Below, one piece after another: positions 4,756 to 13,578 of a DNA stretch of 33,583 nt; the first letter of the stretch is position 1, and the number at the start of each line of letters is the position of its first letter. The position numbers were made by a program, and so were the translations under genes. The DNA comes from Clostridia bacterium (lineage in GTDB: Bacteria; Bacillota_A; Clostridia; Christensenellales; Aristaeellaceae), in the NCBI GenBank assembly GCA_017509065.1, contig JAFWQM010000172.1:1-33583 (forward strand), written 5' to 3'. The notes below the pieces were generated by a model, which saw only the letters and a list, made by a program, of their open reading frames with translations, was not told where the DNA came from and ran no database searches.

Positions 4756-6360
4756 TCAGGACTCCTTTTTCGGATGATGGATGTCAAAGAGGTAGTTCTT
4801 GTTTTCGTCCAGCTTGCGTTCCGGGTAATGGCAGGCGCAGAAGTGATTGGGCTCGATTTCCACCAGCGGCGGGCTAACGCGGCGGCACTTATCCGTCGCC
4901 ATATAGCAGCGGGTGCAGAATTTGCAACCGGCCGGGGGATTGACGGGACTGGGGATATTGCCTTCCAGGATGATGCGCTCCTTGTCGGCGGAACCGGCCT
5001 CCGTGGTGGGGATGGAGGAGAGCAGCGCCACGGTGTAGGGATGGCGCGGGTCCTGGAAGATGGTGTTCTTGTCGGCAAGCTCCACGATGCTGCCCAGGTA
5101 CATGACTGCGATGCGGTCCGAAATAAACTTGACGACCGACAGGTCGTGGGAGATGAACATGTAGGTCAGGTGCTGCTTTTCCTTCAGCTCCTGCAAAAGG
5201 TTGATGATCTGGGACTGGATGGACACGTCCAGAGCGGACACGCACTCGTCGCACACCACGAACTTCGGCTGCACGGCCAGGGCGCGGGCGATGCAGATGC
5301 GCTGGCGCTGGCCGCCGGAGAACTGGTGGGGATAGCGGTGGAGCATGTATTCCTGCAGGCCGCATTTCTCCATGGTGTCCACGATGTAGGCGCGCATCTT
5401 GGGAGAGCCGTGCTTGAAGAAGTGGTGGGTCACCAGGCCCTCTTCAATGATCTGGCCCACGGTGAAGCGGGGATTCAGGCTGGAATAGGGGTCCTGGAAG
5501 ATGATCTGCATGTTCTTGCGCAAGGCGCGCATTTCATTGCTGCTGAGGCGGGCCAGGTCGATGCCGTTGTCGAGCATGGCTTCGTATTTGGCGAACTCGG
5601 CGTCGTCCTTATACTTCGCCTTGACCGCGGCGAGCTGGCTTTGCAGGCCGGCGATGCGCTGGTCGTATTCGGCTATAATGGCGTCGATCTTCTCCAGCGC
5701 GGCGGCTTCTTTGTCTTTGTTCCGTTCCAGACCGGCCTTTTTGCTTTCCTTCGCTTCGGTGATGCTGTGCTCGAAGTGCTCCAGGTTTACCTGGTGAGTC
5801 TTCCGGTTTTCCAGCACGGCGTTGCGCTTTTTGTTTTCCTCGTAGAGCTGCAGCAGCAGGGACATTCCTTCCGGATCGTCCTTGGCGTAAAAGCCGCCTA
5901 AAATCTTGACGATGTTGCTCAGGTGGGTCTGCTCGTCGCACTGGGCGATATTGCATTCCTGCAGCAGATAGAAATCCGCGCCGTCCTCGCCGCCTGCGGC
6001 CTGCACCTTCTGTTCCAGATCCCGAGCCTTGGCGCTGGCCTTGTCCAGGGCCTTGCGGTATTTCTTCTCGTTCTTGATAGTGTCGCGCATGTAGCCGGGG
6101 GTCAGCTCGTCCAGGGTGACGCCGTAATACAGCGTGCAGCCCGCCGTCTGGGGATAGAGCTGGAGCAGCACGCGGCCCAGCGTGGATTTGCCGCATCCGG
6201 ATTCACCCACGACACCCAGGGTTTCACCCTCGTAGATGTCGATGGTGATGTTCTCGTTGGCGCGGACATACAGCCGGTTCCGCTGGAAGATGGAGGATTT
6301 GGCGACCGGAAAATACTTTTTCAGATTAGTAATGGACAGTAATTTTTTTGTGTTCGCCAT
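4756..6360 (-). CDS. oppF: Peptide ABC transporter ATPase (OppF/DppF type) with large helical insertion
   Basis: This ATPase subunit (534 residues) powers peptide uptake with OppD. Walker A GESGCGKST is at 52-60, the Q-loop FQDPYSSLNPR at 288-298, the signature SGGQRQR at 348-354, Walker B FVVCDE ends at 372, and the switch histidine is in SHD (404-406). The C-terminal oligopeptide/dipeptide domain has several cysteines (GCKFCTRC and FCACHYPE). Ordinary members are about 320-340 residues. The surplus is a charged, probably coiled-coil segment of about 195 residues (around 78-272) between Walker A and the Q-loop. Cys replaces the usual Pro after the catalytic Glu (DEC). AAGGAGG precedes ATG 6360, and the first 35 bases overlap the end of oppD. 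The 53-residue in-frame upstream extension is an artefact. Confidence 0.93.
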   Translation of the reverse strand: MANTKKLLSITNLKKYFPVAKSSIFQRNRLYVRANENITIDIYEGETLGVVGESGCGKSTLGRVLLQLYPQTAGCTLYYGVTLDELTPGYMRDTIKNEKKYRKALDKASAKARDLEQKVQAAGGEDGADFYLLQECNIAQCDEQTHLSNIVKILGGFYAKDDPEGMSLLLQLYEENKKRNAVLENRKTHQVNLEHFEHSITEAKESKKAGLERNKDKEAAALEKIDAIIAEYDQRIAGLQSQLAAVKAKYKDDAEFAKYEAMLDNGIDLARLSSNEMRALRKNMQIIFQDPYSSLNPRFTVGQIIEEGLVTHHFFKHGSPKMRAYIVDTMEKCGLQEYMLHRYPHQFSGGQRQRICIARALAVQPKFVVCDECVSALDVSIQSQIINLLQELKEKQHLTYMFISHDLSVVKFISDRIAVMYLGSIVELADKNTIFQDPRHPYTVALLSSIPTTEAGSADKERIILEGNIPSPVNPPAGCKFCTRCYMATDKCRRVSPPLVEIEPNHFCACHYPERKLDENKNYLFDIHHPKKES

Positions 6361-7339
6361 TATTCCGTTCCTCCTTGTTGGGATAGAAGCACCGGATCGC
6401 CTGGTTGTCGCTGACCTTTGTGAGCGGCGGTTCCTCGTCGATGCATTTCTGCGTGCAGTATTTGCAGCGGGGGCCGAACTTGCAGCCCTTGGGCAGCGCC
6501 AGCGGATGCGGCACCACACCGGGGATGGGCTCCAGGCGGTCGCTTTCGATTTCGAGGCGCGGGATGGAGAGCATCAGGCCCTCGGTGTAGGGATGGCTGT
6601 TTTTGGAATCCTGGAAGATCACGTCCGCCGGGGCCTGCTCCACCACCTGGCCGCAGTACATCACGGCCACGTCGTCGGCCATCTCGTTGATGACGCCAAG
6701 GTCGTGGGTGATGAAGATAATGGCCGTGCCGGTGGACTGCTTGAGCTCGTTCATCAGCCGCAGGATCTGGGCCTGAATGGTCACGTCCAGAGCGGTGGTC
6801 GGTTCGTCGGCAATCAGGATTTTCGGCTTGCAGGCCAGCGCCATAGCGATCATTACGCGCTGCCGCATACCGCCGGAAAGCTGGTGCGGATACTGCTTGA
6901 TGACCACTTCGGGGTTGGGAATCTGCACGTCGTAGAGCATTTGCAGGGCTTTTTCGTGGGCCTCCTGCTTGTTCATGCCCTGGTGGACCATGAAGGGCTC
7001 GGACAGCTGCCTGTCCACGGAGAACACGGGGTTCAGGCTGGTCATGGGTTCCTGGAAAATAACGGAAATCTCATTGCCGCGGATGCTCTGAATCTCCTTG
7101 AGGGACAGCTTCGTAAGGTCCCTGCCCTCCATGATGATCTCGCCGCTGTCGATGTAACCGTTGCCGTCCAGCAATTGCAGGATGCTCATGGCGGACACGG
7201 ATTTGCCCGAGCCGCTTTCGCCCACGATGCCGATGGTCTTGCCGCTTTCCAGAGAGTAGGACACGTCGTTGACCGCTTTGACGATACCTTTTTTCGTAGT
7301 AAAGAAGGTGTGAAGATTTTTTACTTCCAGCAAAGGCAT
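6326..7339 (-). CDS. oppD: Peptide ABC transporter ATPase (OppD/DppD type)
   Basis: This is the first of the two cytosolic ATPases of the importer, 337 residues, the normal length. Walker A GESGSGKS is at 40-47, the Q-loop [12 protein letters not shown] begins at 95, the signature LSGGMRQR is at 154-161, Walker B ILIADEP is at 174-180, and a switch histidine lies in THDLG. The C-terminal peptide-transporter domain keeps its cysteine cluster ([15 protein letters not shown]). That region is known to bind an iron-sulfur cluster in some relatives; here this is only inferred. AAGGAGGG lies upstream of ATG 7339. The gene starts 15 bases after oppC and overlaps oppF. Unlike oppF and oppC it has no insertion. 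Confidence 0.95.
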
Positions 7340-7354
7340 ATTCTCATTCCCTCC

Positions 7355-9334
7355 TTACTTATCATTGGTGGACTTGGGATCCATCACGTCGCGGAGCGTA
7401 TCGCCGATGGTGTTGATGCACACCGTGGTGGTGATGAGGATCGCGGAGGTGAACACCCACTGCCACCAGAAGTTGATGGCGGCCACGGCGTTGCTGGCGC
7501 GGGAGAGCATATTGCCCCAGCTGGGCTGCGGATAGGTGACGCCGAAGCCCAGGAACGACAGGGACGTTTCCGTCTGCATGGAGGCCGCGAAGCTGAGCGT
7601 GATATTCACCAGAATCACGGAGACGATGTTCGGCAGGATATGCTTGAAGGCGATGCGGCTGGACTTGACGCCCATGGCCTGGGCTGCGGTGACGTACTCG
7701 CTTTCACGGGCAACCAGCACCTGGGCACGGGTGATATAGGCAAAGCCGGGCCAGCCCAAAACGCCCAGGATCACCATGATCATATACAGCCGCTGGTCGG
7801 TGGTCAGGGACACCTGGGCCAGCAGGGAGGTCAGAATCAGCAGGAAGGGATACAGCGGGATGGAGCTGATTACCTCCGCCACACGCATCAGGAAGATATC
7901 CACCCAGCCGCCGGCAAAGCCCGCCGTCAGGCCGATGGTGACGCCGATGATGATTTCAATGATGACGGCCACCGCGCCGACGGTCATGGTGATGCGTCCA
8001 CCGGCGATGACGCGCTCGGCGATGTTCGCGCCGCGGTCGTCCGTGCCGAAGAGGTAGCCCTTCAGGCCCCACTTGTTGATCAGCTTGCCGTTTTCATCTA
8101 CGGCGTAGCTCTGGAAGGAACCGGCGTAAATCTTCGCCGCGCCCTCCACCTTAGGCGCTTCTGCCTGGCGGTAATGGTCGCCGCCGAAGGAATACACATG
8201 GCCCAGATTGGTCAGGCCCGTGAAGTGGTAGTTGCCCGCTTCGATGTCGATGAAGCGCTCGCCCTCCTGGAGGGTGGGCACTTCCACAAAGTCGGCGGGG
8301 AAATCGCCGGTGAGGGCGATGCTGCCATCGTCCAGCAGCAGGCAGACGGAGGTGGTGGTGGCGCGCACTTCGTTGATCTTCCGGCCGTCCAGGAAATCGG
8401 ACATCTTCTTGGTGTCAGTGCCGCCGATGACGGTCTTGGCCTTGGTATACAGGCCCTTGGTGCCGGTATAAACGCTGGTCTGCTTTTCGTCCAGGCCCAC
8501 CACGTAGTTGAGGGTGAAGTCCACGTCCACAATGTTCGTGCGGCCGATGAACTTATCCAGGTTGGCGTAGGCCTGCTTGTTGCCCCAGATATACAGTGTG
8601 CCGTCATCCATCAGGATGGCGGAAGCCTGGTAGCCGCAGGTCACTTTTTTGATGTGGGAAACATCCAGCTGACCGCCGGAGACTTCCTCGGGTATGGGCG
8701 CCAGGTTTGGGTTGGCAAGCACTGCTTCCGTGGCCTCGTACTGGCCGAAGCGGTTGCTGCCCCAGCCGTAGAACGCGCCGTCCTCGCCGATGGCGATGAT
8801 GTGATCCTGGCCGGCGGCGACGAAGGCGATCTTCGCGTTCTTCACTTCGTCGGGAATCTTCTTGACGTCAATGCCCGTTGCGCCGATTTTGCCGATACCC
8901 CAGACGTAAACCTTGCCGTCCGTGGACAGACCCACGGAGAAGCTGGAGTAGCTGTCAATTGTTTTGATTTTTCCCGCCAGTTCCCCGGGGACGTTCATAA
9001 AGTCCAGGGTGGGGGGCAGGTCCTTCTGGGTGGTTTCAGTGAAGGCGTCGTAATACTTGGTCATGAAGTGAGGCGCGATGAACACCACGCAGAACATCAC
9101 CACGACCACGATCACGGAAAACACCGCGAACTTGCGCTCGATAAACCGATTGAAAATCTGCCGCGCCGGGCTGACGATCAGCTCGGAATCGTCCGGCACA
9201 CCGTCCTTGAATTTGATTTCGGCAGGCGCGTCCTTCTCCTTTTTGCCGAACCATTTCTCTTCATACTTCAGGCCGAAGATCCAGCGAACGAACCAGCGGG
9301 CCAGGACGCGGAACACGTTTTCTTTCTTCTTCAT
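7355..9334 (-). CDS. oppC: Peptide ABC transporter permease (OppC/DppC type) with inserted RCC1-like beta-propeller
   Basis: This 659-residue permease is about twice the usual 280-320. Residues 1-68 are cytosolic and charged, and the first membrane helix is about 69-88. Residues 118-435 hold seven repeats of RCC1 type, each with a glycine-rich turn and a WG or FG ending: LSTDGKVYVWGIG, IGEDGAFYGWGSNRFGQ and MDDGTLYIWGNK are the clearest. The seventh runs into the permease motif LFGTDDRGANIAERVIAGGR. The core follows with five more helices and the ATPase-docking motif EYVTAAQAMGVKSSRIAFKH (about 546-565). By family topology the propeller faces outside, where the binding protein docks. Seven repeats fit one closed seven-bladed propeller. 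A GGGGGG site precedes the ATG. The reading frame is unbroken, so this is a true fusion. Confidence 0.93.
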   Translation of the reverse strand: MKKKENVFRVLARWFVRWIFGLKYEEKWFGKKEKDAPAEIKFKDGVPDDSELIVSPARQIFNRFIERKFAVFSVIVVVVMFCVVFIAPHFMTKYYDAFTETTQKDLPPTLDFMNVPGELAGKIKTIDSYSSFSVGLSTDGKVYVWGIGKIGATGIDVKKIPDEVKNAKIAFVAAGQDHIIAIGEDGAFYGWGSNRFGQYEATEAVLANPNLAPIPEEVSGGQLDVSHIKKVTCGYQASAILMDDGTLYIWGNKQAYANLDKFIGRTNIVDVDFTLNYVVGLDEKQTSVYTGTKGLYTKAKTVIGGTDTKKMSDFLDGRKINEVRATTTSVCLLLDDGSIALTGDFPADFVEVPTLQEGERFIDIEAGNYHFTGLTNLGHVYSFGGDHYRQAEAPKVEGAAKIYAGSFQSYAVDENGKLINKWGLKGYLFGTDDRGANIAERVIAGGRITMTVGAVAVIIEIIIGVTIGLTAGFAGGWVDIFLMRVAEVISSIPLYPFLLILTSLLAQVSLTTDQRLYMIMVILGVLGWPGFAYITRAQVLVARESEYVTAAQAMGVKSSRIAFKHILPNIVSVILVNITLSFAASMQTETSLSFLGFGVTYPQPSWGNMLSRASNAVAAINFWWQWVFTSAILITTTVCINTIGDTLRDVMDPKSTNDK

Positions 9335-9348
9335 GCTATCGTCCCCCC

Positions 9349-10389
9349 TTATTTACTGATGCGCACGCGGGGATCGACGAGGCCGTAGCACAGGTCGATC
9401 ACCAGATTGGCAAAGAGGCCCAGGAAGGTGTAAATCACTTCCATGAACATGATCATGTCATAGTCCGCCGTTCGCGTGGCGTTCAGGAACAGCAGACCCA
9501 TGCCCTTGAAGCCGAACATCTGCTCCAATATCATGGCGCCTGAGATCGTGTGGAAAAAACCGCCCACGATGATGCTCACCATCGGAATCAGGGCATTCCG
9601 CCAGGCGTGGCTGTAAATGACTACCTTTTCGGTCAAGCCCTTGGCCCGGGCGGTGCGGATGCAGTCCAGATTCAGCGCGTCGATCATGGAAGCGCGGGTG
9701 ATGCGCGTGATACCCGCCAGGGAGCCGAAGGTCAGGCAGATGGTGGGCAAAGTGACGTGCCAGAGCACGTCCAGCACCTCACGCCAGCCCGTGTAGTTCG
9801 CGCCTGGCGTTTTCATGCCGCTGACAGGAAACCAGCCGAGGATCGAACAGAAGAACACGATGAATACAATATAGATGATGAAGCTGGGGGTGGAGAAGCC
9901 GATCAGGGTGAAGAACTGGGTGAACCGGTCAAACCGGCTGTTCTTCTTCACGGCGCACTTGATACCCAGTGGGATCGTGATGCCCAGCACCGCAATTTCC
10001 GTGATCACGCCGATAATGAACGAGTTGCGCATATGAACGGGCACCACTTGCACCACCGGCAGATTGTAATCATAGGAGAAGCCGAAGTCTCCCTGGAAGA
10101 TGCCGGAATAATGGCCGTCGTAGAAGGGATACAGCCCCAGCCAGCGCAGATACAGCACCAGCTTGTTGTCGGTGTCCGTGCCGTAGAGACGCTGATACTT
10201 TAAGTACAGCTCATCAAACTTGGTGGCCTTTTCTTCTTCTGAAAGCCGTTTCATGGTCTGAATCTCGGTTCTTGCGTCCGTATACGCCCTGTTCGCAGGC
10301 ATCAGCTGATACAGCATGAACAGGATAAACGTCAGCAAAAAGAACACAACCACCATGTAGATCAACCTTTTTGCGATGTATCTTGCCAT
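9349..10389 (-). CDS. oppB: Peptide ABC transporter permease (OppB/DppB type)
   Basis: This is the first permease subunit, 346 residues, with six expected membrane helices (MVVVFFLLTFILFMLYQLMP is the first). The ATPase-docking loop is DCIRTARAKGLTEKVVIYSH, and the C-terminus ends with the family motif DLCYGLVDPRVRI. Between helix 1 and the conserved FQGDFGFSY motif there are about 30 more residues than in typical OppB (AYTDARTEIQTMKRLSEEE and onward). This outer loop would face the binding protein and the OppC propeller. AAAGGAG lies 8-9 bases before ATG 10389. Fourteen bases separate the stop from oppC. Confidence 0.93.
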   Translation of the reverse strand: MARYIAKRLIYMVVVFFLLTFILFMLYQLMPANRAYTDARTEIQTMKRLSEEEKATKFDELYLKYQRLYGTDTDNKLVLYLRWLGLYPFYDGHYSGIFQGDFGFSYDYNLPVVQVVPVHMRNSFIIGVITEIAVLGITIPLGIKCAVKKNSRFDRFTQFFTLIGFSTPSFIIYIVFIVFFCSILGWFPVSGMKTPGANYTGWREVLDVLWHVTLPTICLTFGSLAGITRITRASMIDALNLDCIRTARAKGLTEKVVIYSHAWRNALIPMVSIIVGGFFHTISGAMILEQMFGFKGMGLLFLNATRTADYDMIMFMEVIYTFLGLFANLVIDLCYGLVDPRVRISK

Positions 10390-10580: not shown

Positions 10581-12797
10581 TTACTTGTTCAGCCACAGGA
10601 TGTCGGCATAGTCCTTGATGTAGTAAGCAGAATAGTCGTCATACATGGCGGGATCGATGGTCATGTTGAACGCGTAGTCATAAGCAGCGGAGCTGAAGCC
10701 GGTCGCGAAGTTGAACGCGCAGTACATGGGAGTGCCGGCATAGAAGCCATACACAGCCGCCTGATAAAGTTCGTCCAGCATGGGGCCGAAGTCGCCGATG
10801 GTGTTGTAAACTACCATACCAGCCTTGGCCACATTCTCATTGGCCTTCAGGCCGGTCTGCAGCAGGTCGGTGAAGGGGTTATCGGCAGTGCCATACCAGT
10901 TGATGACGAGGGGCATGAGGTACACGCCGTTCACTTCTTCGGTCTTGTAGGTACCGTCAACAGCCTTGTAGTTCTTGTCGTTTTCGTTGATCTTGTCAGC
11001 GGGGATGGCCTTGTAGCGCACGCCTTCGCCAGCGTAGGGAGTACCGTCGGCATTGTAGATCCAGCCGTCGGCTTCCAGCACTTCGATGGCAGCGTCAGCG
11101 GAAGTGGCATAGCTGTCCAGCAGCATGCCCTGGTCCACAGCAGCCTTGTACATCCAGGAACCGGTGTAGTAGGGGCCGTCCACAACGCCGCCGTAGCCGC
11201 CGGTGAAGTCCTTGGCGAACTGAGCGCGGTCCATGCACAGGGCGATGGCCTGACGGACAGAAGCGAACTGAGCGGGGCCGTAGTCGGCGCGGAAGCCCAG
11301 CTTGCCGTAACCGGCGCGGCTGTAGTGGGTGTACACGTACTTGCCTTCGGATTCGTCAGCGGTTTTCAGCGCTTCGTCAGTTTCAGCGCCGCCGGTGATG
11401 CCAGCGATAACATCCAGTTCACCGCTGGTGAAAGAAATCATCTGGGTAGCGGAAATGATCTTCTTGTAGATGATGGTACCGATCTTAGGAGTAGCGCCTT
11501 CATAGTTGCCCTTGTAATATTCGTTCTTCACCAGGGTGGCGGTGGAGTCGCTGTTGTCGAAGGATTTCACAACATAGGGGCCAGACCAGGGATACGCGGC
11601 GTAGTTTTCTTCGCTGGTATCTGTGCACAGCTTCTTGATCTTGGCAGCCTGGATGTACTTGCCATCGGCGTCCTTGGCATAGAATTCGTCAGACAGATAG
11701 CAGCCTTCGCCGTCGTCCTTGATTTCAACGCCTTCGCCCAGGAAAGCGGCGGCGTAGCTGGCAGAGAATCCGCCGTAAATGATCTTGTAGAAGTAGTTGG
11801 CATAATCCGGTAAGATGGACACGGAGAAGGTGTAATCATCGATCAGGTGGAGACCAGCCAAGAACTTGGTGCCTTCTTCACTGTCGGGGCCAGTGTACTT
11901 CTGATAAGCGCCCTTCCAACCGACCATAGTCGGCAGGCTCTTCTCACTACCTTGAGCTTCGGCGCCAACGGGAGAATACATCGCCATAGTGAAAGCCAGA
12001 TAATCCTTCGCGGTGACAGGACTGCCATCGGAGAATTTCAGGTCGTCCTTGATTTTGATGGTGTAGGTAAGAGATCCATCTTCGTTAATGGTTTCTTCGT
12101 GAGAATCCACAACGGTTTCGTTCCACTCGAAGCCGCCTTCCTTGGTGGTGGCGACGGTTTCCAGGCCACTGGTCAGGCCTTCCACGTCGTTATCGGAAGC
12201 GGCAGGATTGGTCTTTCCGAATGTGGCATAACGGAACTGGCCGGACAGTTCGGTGGTATTGCCCAGGATGAAGCTGTTATCTGCTTTCTCAGAGGACCAG
12301 TCAATCAGAGCAGACGCAGGGCTCCAGAAGGGGTTGGTGGGATATTCCGCAACGCCCTTGATATGCGCGTTGTACAGGTCGTAATATTCGTTGCTGTACA
12401 GGGGCACTTCGGGCAGCAGATAATTCCAGCGGGTGATATACAGTCTCCACCAGGCGGCGTAGACGTCGTCTTCGGTTTCGTAGTCACCGGCGGGGGTGGT
12501 GTTGTACACCATCGCCATGGTCAGGAAGTCCAGGCCCAGTTCGTACTTTTCGCCATCCACGGTGATGTAGGCGAAGCCGGTTTCCTCGTCTTCTTCCACA
12601 TCGGCGATGGTGATGTCCTTGCCGTACTTTTCGTACAGGGAGGTGTAATCCTCGCCATACTTGAAATTGCCCAGGGTCATGACCTGGAATTCAGGCGATT
12701 CCACGATTTTCGCGGCATCAACGCTTTCGGCGCCAGCAAAGCTGACAGCCGCCAGCACCATAACCAGCGTCATGAGCAAAGCTACCAGTTTCTTCAT
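10581..12797 (-). CDS. oppA: Peptide ABC transporter substrate-binding protein (SBP family 5), oversized
   Basis: This extracytoplasmic binding protein (738 residues) would capture peptides for the OppBCDF importer encoded downstream. The first 23-25 residues form a signal peptide (MKKLVALLMTLVMVLAAVSF, then AGAES), probably cut after AGA. There is no lipobox cysteine, although most Bacillota binding proteins are lipoproteins. Family-5 traits include LTYTIKIKDDLKFSDGSPVT, then AKDYLAF, and the later FASVRQAIALCMDRAQFA. Typical members are 520-600 residues. The extra length lies mainly in the N-terminal region before YTIKIKDDLKF and in acidic, Tyr-rich inserts. AGGAGG lies upstream of ATG 12797. 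Ligand specificity cannot be read. Confidence 0.9.
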   Translation of the reverse strand: MKKLVALLMTLVMVLAAVSFAGAESVDAAKIVESPEFQVMTLGNFKYGEDYTSLYEKYGKDITIADVEEDEETGFAYITVDGEKYELGLDFLTMAMVYNTTPAGDYETEDDVYAAWWRLYITRWNYLLPEVPLYSNEYYDLYNAHIKGVAEYPTNPFWSPASALIDWSSEKADNSFILGNTTELSGQFRYATFGKTNPAASDNDVEGLTSGLETVATTKEGGFEWNETVVDSHEETINEDGSLTYTIKIKDDLKFSDGSPVTAKDYLAFTMAMYSPVGAEAQGSEKSLPTMVGWKGAYQKYTGPDSEEGTKFLAGLHLIDDYTFSVSILPDYANYFYKIIYGGFSASYAAAFLGEGVEIKDDGEGCYLSDEFYAKDADGKYIQAAKIKKLCTDTSEENYAAYPWSGPYVVKSFDNSDSTATLVKNEYYKGNYEGATPKIGTIIYKKIISATQMISFTSGELDVIAGITGGAETDEALKTADESEGKYVYTHYSRAGYGKLGFRADYGPAQFASVRQAIALCMDRAQFAKDFTGGYGGVVDGPYYTGSWMYKAAVDQGMLLDSYATSADAAIEVLEADGWIYNADGTPYAGEGVRYKAIPADKINENDKNYKAVDGTYKTEEVNGVYLMPLVINWYGTADNPFTDLLQTGLKANENVAKAGMVVYNTIGDFGPMLDELYQAAVYGFYAGTPMYCAFNFATGFSSAAYDYAFNMTIDPAMYDDYSAYYIKDYADILWLNK

Positions 12798-12966: not shown

Positions 12967-13578
12967 TCACAGCGGTTTTGATTCGAAAGCCGCGTTCTCT
13001 CTTTCCGACAAATCAATGCTCCGCAGAAAGTAAACAGTGCCTGCGGACAGCATCCCGATGACCGCGCACGCTGCGATAAAATACCAGTCCTCCGGCAGGA
13101 ACAGCCAGTCGCCCAGAATGATTCTGTAAACAAACGACGCCAGCAATCCCGCAAACGCAAAGGCGCTCACGCCCACCGCGGAGCGGGATGCCCGGATAAA
13201 ACTATGCATATACTGGTCGCGGCGCATGGGCTTTCCCCGGAAAGGCAGCGAAAACACCCCCATCAGAAGATACAGCACCGGAAACAGCCCGGCCAGCAGC
13301 GGAAGCATGACCAGCAGGCTGCCGCTGCCGACATGGGTGAGCAGCAGCGACCAGATATAAGCCGCAATCAGAACGAACGCTGTGGCTGCCGCCGCATACA
13401 TCTTCGCCCGTGTGGCCGTGCCCGCGTCCCGAAGCACTGTCCATACGCCTGTGTACAGCGCTTTTTTGCGCATCCTGCCGTTTTTATCCTTTACTTCGAT
13501 GATCTCGAAATCGCCCACAAACCGTTTCAGGTCGCTGAATTTGCTGTCGCTGCTGAGAAAGCCGTCAAAAAGACCCAT
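12967..13578 (-). CDS. Four-helix membrane protein of unknown function
   Basis: I do not recognise a family for this 203-residue protein. The first 58 residues are charged and probably cytosolic (MGLFDGFLSS, then FEIIEVKDKNGRMRKKALYT). Four hydrophobic segments lie near 61-80, 88-110, 134-154 and 165-185. A basic patch, FRGKPMRRDQYMHSFIRASR, sits between the second and third. The tail is charged. GAGGAG lies about 10 bases before ATG 13578, and a strong promoter lies at 13626-13653. It sits between the transporter operon and the flotillin-like gene but has separate signals from both. Its reading frame and codon use match the neighbours, so it is a real gene. Confidence 0.75.
   Translation of the reverse strand: MGLFDGFLSSDSKFSDLKRFVGDFEIIEVKDKNGRMRKKALYTGVWTVLRDAGTATRAKMYAAAATAFVLIAAYIWSLLLTHVGSGSLLVMLPLLAGLFPVLYLLMGVFSLPFRGKPMRRDQYMHSFIRASRSAVGVSAFAFAGLLASFVYRIILGDWLFLPEDWYFIAACAVIGMLSAGTVYFLRSIDLSERENAAFESKPL

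Follow-up and report, generated by a model that had tools for sequence, protein, structure and literature searches.

The stretch of DNA analyzed here, called the window, comprises 33,583 nucleotides from a Clostridia bacterium (contig JAFWQM010000172.1 of assembly GCA_017509065.1) and encodes an importer operon of the Opp type on its minus strand. The OppC permease of this operon carries a predicted seven-bladed RCC1-like propeller in what is otherwise an ordinary permease, and the family 5 substrate-binding protein encoded beside it is a naturally occurring circular permutant. The components are of known kinds; their combination is new. Titles and abstract openings listed from the literature searched, which covered few subscription papers and no bioRxiv preprints, describe neither a propeller in an Opp permease nor a naturally permuted binding protein of this kind. 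The OppC gene and its parts are these:

7355..9334, minus strand: OppC with inserted RCC1-like propeller, 659 residues (open reading frame, Pfam, AlphaFold2)
9065..9133, minus strand: helix 1, residues 68-90 (DSSP on the AlphaFold2 model)
8051..9007, minus strand: inserted stretch, residues 110-428 (alignment with the short-loop OppC L188, model, Pfam)
7367..8059, minus strand: OppC permease core with BPD_transp_1, residues 426-656 (Pfam, fold comparison)

The original prediction, made from the letters of the sequence, described an unbroken frame of 659 residues without stating its strand. The frame is indeed single, with 659 codons and no internal stop, and lies on the minus strand; the plus-strand translation of 7355..9334 is unrelated to OppC. 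Pfam models follow one another along the protein in the order OppC_N (residues 55-108, E 2.2e-7), RCC1 repeats and BPD_transp_1 (464-654, E 1.6e-30). The repeats are recognized by RCC1_2 in four stretches (E 9.3e-28, 95.7 bits against a cut-off of 22) and by RCC1 (E 2.1e-9, 38.2 bits against 21.7), and all four of these models score above their curated cut-offs. WD40_RLD reaches E 4e-31 and 109.1 bits, below its cut-off of 150, so the domain is named RCC1-like and is not assigned to WD40_RLD. The best NCBIfam model for the core is Opp4C (E 4.5e-78, 262.3 bits), whose model length of 278 does not include the insertion; all NCBIfam OppC models listed fall under their cut-offs, Opp4C requiring 350 bits, and no OppC equivalog is assigned. 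The AlphaFold2 model has a mean predicted local distance difference test score (pLDDT) of 87.7; within the propeller, blocks of ten residues score 88-96. It places seven strand triplets between residues 123 and 423, in agreement with the seven repeats that had been predicted, and helix 1 at 68-90, close to the predicted 69-88. The modeled propeller matches solved propellers of BLIP-II and UVR8. The rest of the model aligns with all 278 of 278 residues of E. coli OppC (8z21_B) at 2.0 Å; that chain aligns over its whole length and has no such domain between its first two helices. By its domains, its fold and its operon, the protein is a permease of the OppC/DppC type. Domain searches, structure prediction and a homolog survey, each proposed along with the original prediction, bear out a single OppC frame with a predicted propeller.

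In a pairwise alignment, window OppC follows L188 to residue 109 and resumes at 429, apart from one four-residue block set at 359-362 by gap placement. This break, flanked by 'DLPPT' and 'FGTD', assigns the insert to the loop that joins helix 1 to helix 2, which faces the outer side in OppC and DppC. Net charge is +6 over residues 1-70 and -11 over residues 91-427, consistent with an N-terminus inside the cell and a propeller outside. A location on the outer face of the membrane, as first proposed, is therefore well supported by charge pattern and loop position together.

A search of 5.8 billion proteins returned 784 relatives, and results come from the best 120 of these, window OppC included. 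All 119 others share the same five Pfam domains at 82-96% identity. A frame error that fused two genes had been named as what could undo the prediction; with the same architecture in these 119 proteins and in cultured isolates, that explanation, along with an error of assembly, was rejected and retains a negligible probability. The propeller and its WG motifs are kept in 25 relatives picked for alignment as full-length sequences of 34-86% identity. Among 150 genomes from the family of the nearest relative, 25 have a match spanning propeller and core (query start at 51 or earlier, end at 655 or later); reading of individual loci adds G035 (L037), for 26, and shows interrupted or cut frames in G126 and G037. 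In a draw of 398 genomes from the phylum, 14, with G001 counted, match at E 1e-70 or better. At least 80 loci were found among 591 relatives in a named collection, mainly from gut metagenome bins, many of them ruminant. Neighbors of this kind suggest that the Clostridia source of the window also lives in the gut. Relatives occur across Bacillota, and isolates with a propeller OppC include Hungatella effluvii, Falcatimonas sp., Dielma fastidiosa, Erysipelothrix inopinata and Anaerococcus sp. Four loci were scanned with Pfam (L108, L104, L115 and L094): RCC1_2 and BPD_transp_1 exceed their cut-offs in all four and OppC_N in three, falling slightly below in L108. Propeller OppC operons also appear in bins labeled Treponema and Anaerolineaceae (L094, L088); these may be transfers or misbinned contigs.

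Beside the propeller OppC, the operon encodes OppB, a family 5 binding protein and the ATPases OppD and OppF. All five are found together again in other loci of sufficient length, with OppF before OppD in L108 and L112, and constitute the same subunit set as E. coli OppBCDF (8z21), E. coli DppABCDF (8z1y) and M. tuberculosis OppABCD (8j5q). The binding protein of the window, whose permutation, like the OppF insert described below, goes unmentioned in the original prediction, is laid out as follows:

10581..12797, minus strand: substrate-binding protein, 738 residues, circularly permuted (sequence and fold comparisons)
12303..12542, minus strand: segment that is C-terminal in canonical relatives, residues 86-165
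10611..12290, minus strand: main body in canonical order, residues 170-729

SBP_bac_5 scores 110.9 bits in this protein against a Pfam cut-off of 32.4, and its predicted fold still matches family 5 proteins; its segments do not follow the canonical order of family 5 (cluster C). Residues 177-320 of OppA 9p48 correspond to window residues 406-560 (49.2 bits), and residues 21-96, weakly, to 196-277 (5.9 bits). The C-terminal residues 505-556 correspond to window residues 111-165 (19.7 bits), which means that the order of segments differs. Solved family 5 proteins align with the window protein from about residue 148-175 onward, their C-terminal parts being left over; sequential fold alignments do not display a permutation directly, and such parts simply stay unaligned. 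A profile of ordinary binding proteins missed the permutation, even against the doubled sequence; closer relatives revealed it. Permuted binding proteins occur in 23 of 66 RCC1-OppC operons examined, the window's included (22 of the 65 others).

The window's binding protein has a signal-peptide-like start and no lipobox cysteine. Among 70 binding-protein frames from RCC1 operons, a lipobox is found by pattern in 49 and on reading in two more (L069 and one of L097), 11 have none, and eight, cut or unclear, were left out of the judgment. Lgt is present in 58 of the 60 genomes sampled from the nearest family. In five genomes (L120-L149), 29 of 31 family 5 matches were examined, five of them in RCC1 operons; of the 24 outside such operons, 22 have no lipobox by pattern, and the two flagged look like AxA sites on reading.

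We consider it slightly better than an even chance that the propeller is an outer docking platform for the binding protein of its own operon. In ordinary OppC a short outer loop joins helix 1 to helix 2; the propeller takes its place. As a fixed platform it would hold or position the large binding protein over the OppB/OppC pore, and contact between the two may aid capture or delivery of the substrate, presumably a peptide. Three observations speak for this reading: the closest fold to the propeller, BLIP-II (1jtd, 3qhy, 3qi0), binds a protein; the binding protein is itself remodeled; and evolutionary distances connect it with the propeller. Partial distance correlations were computed for six parts (propeller, OppC core, OppB, OppD, OppF and the body of the binding protein), first in 61 operons and again in 59 after removal of L102 and L105, whose OppD rows were odd. 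These values, from few operons, carry no significance test against the shared tree. Core and OppB, which form a heterodimer and serve as the expected control, correlate at 0.77-0.80 with the others held constant. Propeller and binding protein reach 0.47-0.51, against -0.11 to 0.20 for the other propeller pairs, and 0.56 in the 22 permuted operons.

Several results weigh against docking. In the 37 canonical operons the propeller and binding protein correlate at only 0.19, below propeller-OppF (0.32) and propeller-OppB (0.22), and the value drops to 0.12 in the 28 that remain without nine deep-branching operons. The core-OppB control also falls in these sets, to 0.43 and 0.28, which lowers the power of the test there. 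The overall signal may come partly from the lineage split or from fast change of both parts. Of the three roles that the original prediction offered, substrate recognition, holding the binding protein and anchoring to the cell wall, the second is favored by the correlations in the whole set and in the window's lineage, with no clear link in canonical operons. One variant, in which the propeller stands in for a lost lipid anchor, was rejected as a specific explanation: 49 of 70 partner frames show a lipobox, and other binding proteins in the five genomes lack one as well.

Four residues of the repeats, H178, Q236, H370 and Q408, are nearly invariant, and residues of this kind face the central channel in RCC1 folds. 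They could mean that the propeller binds substrate or a small outer ligand directly, concentrating or selecting cargo ahead of the binding protein. We regard this as rather unlikely, since the general RCC1 repeat motif includes these residues and the propeller, with a mean distance of 1.41 (core 0.58), changes fastest of all parts measured.

The likeness to BLIP-II is open to another interpretation, because BLIP-II binds beta-lactamase, according to PDB titles: the propeller might bind a different outer partner, such as a peptidase, a cell-wall enzyme or the wall itself, and so anchor or couple the importer. In the outer loop of a further OppC of the nearest genome (L006:1495-2886, minus strand), SH3_3 matches weakly and under its Pfam cut-off, which would suit such a role. 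The correlation favors the binding protein over other partners, and we hold this alternative to be unlikely. The likeness to BLIP-II is by fold only; a PDB sequence search gave 39 matches at E 0.01 or better, none of them BLIP-II, and BLIP-II is a separate protein, whereas the window propeller is a loop insert in a membrane protein. UVR8, HERC2, RPGR and RCC1 contain eukaryotic RCC1-like domains, mostly cytosolic or nuclear, with no link to transport, unlike the window propeller. Pneumococcal AmiC-type permeases likewise have an Opp permease subunit with an enlarged outer part, which lies on the OppB side and has another fold. RCC1-like proteins of Hepatoplasmataceae are treated in one further paper (PMC10928387).

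Of the 78 OppC cores placed in a tree, 43 carry the propeller, and these group as a single clade (100/100). This clade joins five OppCs with frames of 593-712 residues and no propeller match, together with the 300-residue OppC L102 (96/92); placement of L102 itself is weakly supported (88/79). OppCs adjoining the clade have a large unrelated insert in the same outer loop, with no RCC1 match (L150:6696-8474, L151:7917-9695). That a sister group fills the same loop with something unrelated, and that short-loop OppCs function with no propeller at all, would suit a propeller that is a mere passenger, stiffening or shielding the loop. Set against this, the propeller is present in all 43 clade rows, although loci for the tree were found with propeller-bearing queries and losses inside the clade may be under-sampled, and it is under purifying selection (omega 0.16-0.47 in four pairs). 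The passenger explanation is improbable.

Diverged propellers were sought among 28 core-only OppC frames of 576-755 residues, and none of five examined matches the propeller: L038 and L039 have an unrelated insert by sequence reading and Pfam scan, and L155-L157 have a long N-terminal part with no propeller match. Candidates for clade members without a propeller were the short-loop OppCs of highest core identity, L188 and L189 (44%); both lack the propeller, and the 78-core tree was computed without them.

The remaining subunits of the window operon are these:

9349..10389, minus strand: OppB, 346 residues (Pfam BPD_transp_1, 2.6e-35)
6326..7339, minus strand: OppD ATPase, 337 residues (Pfam, NCBIfam)
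4756..6360, minus strand: OppF ATPase, 534 residues, its Walker A and Q-loop separated by a long insert
5566..6138, minus strand: OppF insert, about residues 75-265, bounds approximate (sequence reading)

The OppF insert has roughly 190 residues; profile matches resume near residue 263-268, and PDB searches with OppF give their best-scoring stretches outside it. Spacing from Walker A to Q-loop is at least 140 in 69 of 73 RCC1 operons measured, at least 190 in 64 of them, and 45-58 in the other four (L059, L061, L068 and L106). In the 16 OppFs measured that neighbor short or other long OppCs it is 41-47 without exception; L119, listed with these as a seventeenth, proved to be an RCC1 operon in truncated form and was left out. 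L188 shows a spacing of 47, and no OppF was found in the L189 stretch. OppD spacing is 45-76 in all 106 measured.

Propeller and binding protein could form a matched outer pair, the propeller in OppC being a permanent receptor for a dedicated binding protein, the permutation in the window's lineage having shifted the N-terminus (with the lipid anchor, where one is present) and so the seating on the propeller, and the OppF insert on the inner side being a third specialization. Such an operon would represent a distinct kind of peptide importer. We offer this tentatively; the four RCC1 operons without an OppF insert and the 43 of 66 examined binding proteins that are not permuted speak against full interdependence.

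The binding protein is usually described as the main outer recognition part of such importers, and a propeller fixed to the permease would add a second, testable because it is present in cultured isolates. Permuted and canonical binding proteins in sister operons make a natural experiment on the position of termini and anchor in docking. The near confinement of the OppF insert to RCC1 operons in this sample raises the question of a coupling between docking outside the cell and the ATPase inside it. Upstream of the operon, positions 12967-13578 (minus strand) encode a 203-residue protein with hydrophobic stretches and no Pfam match.
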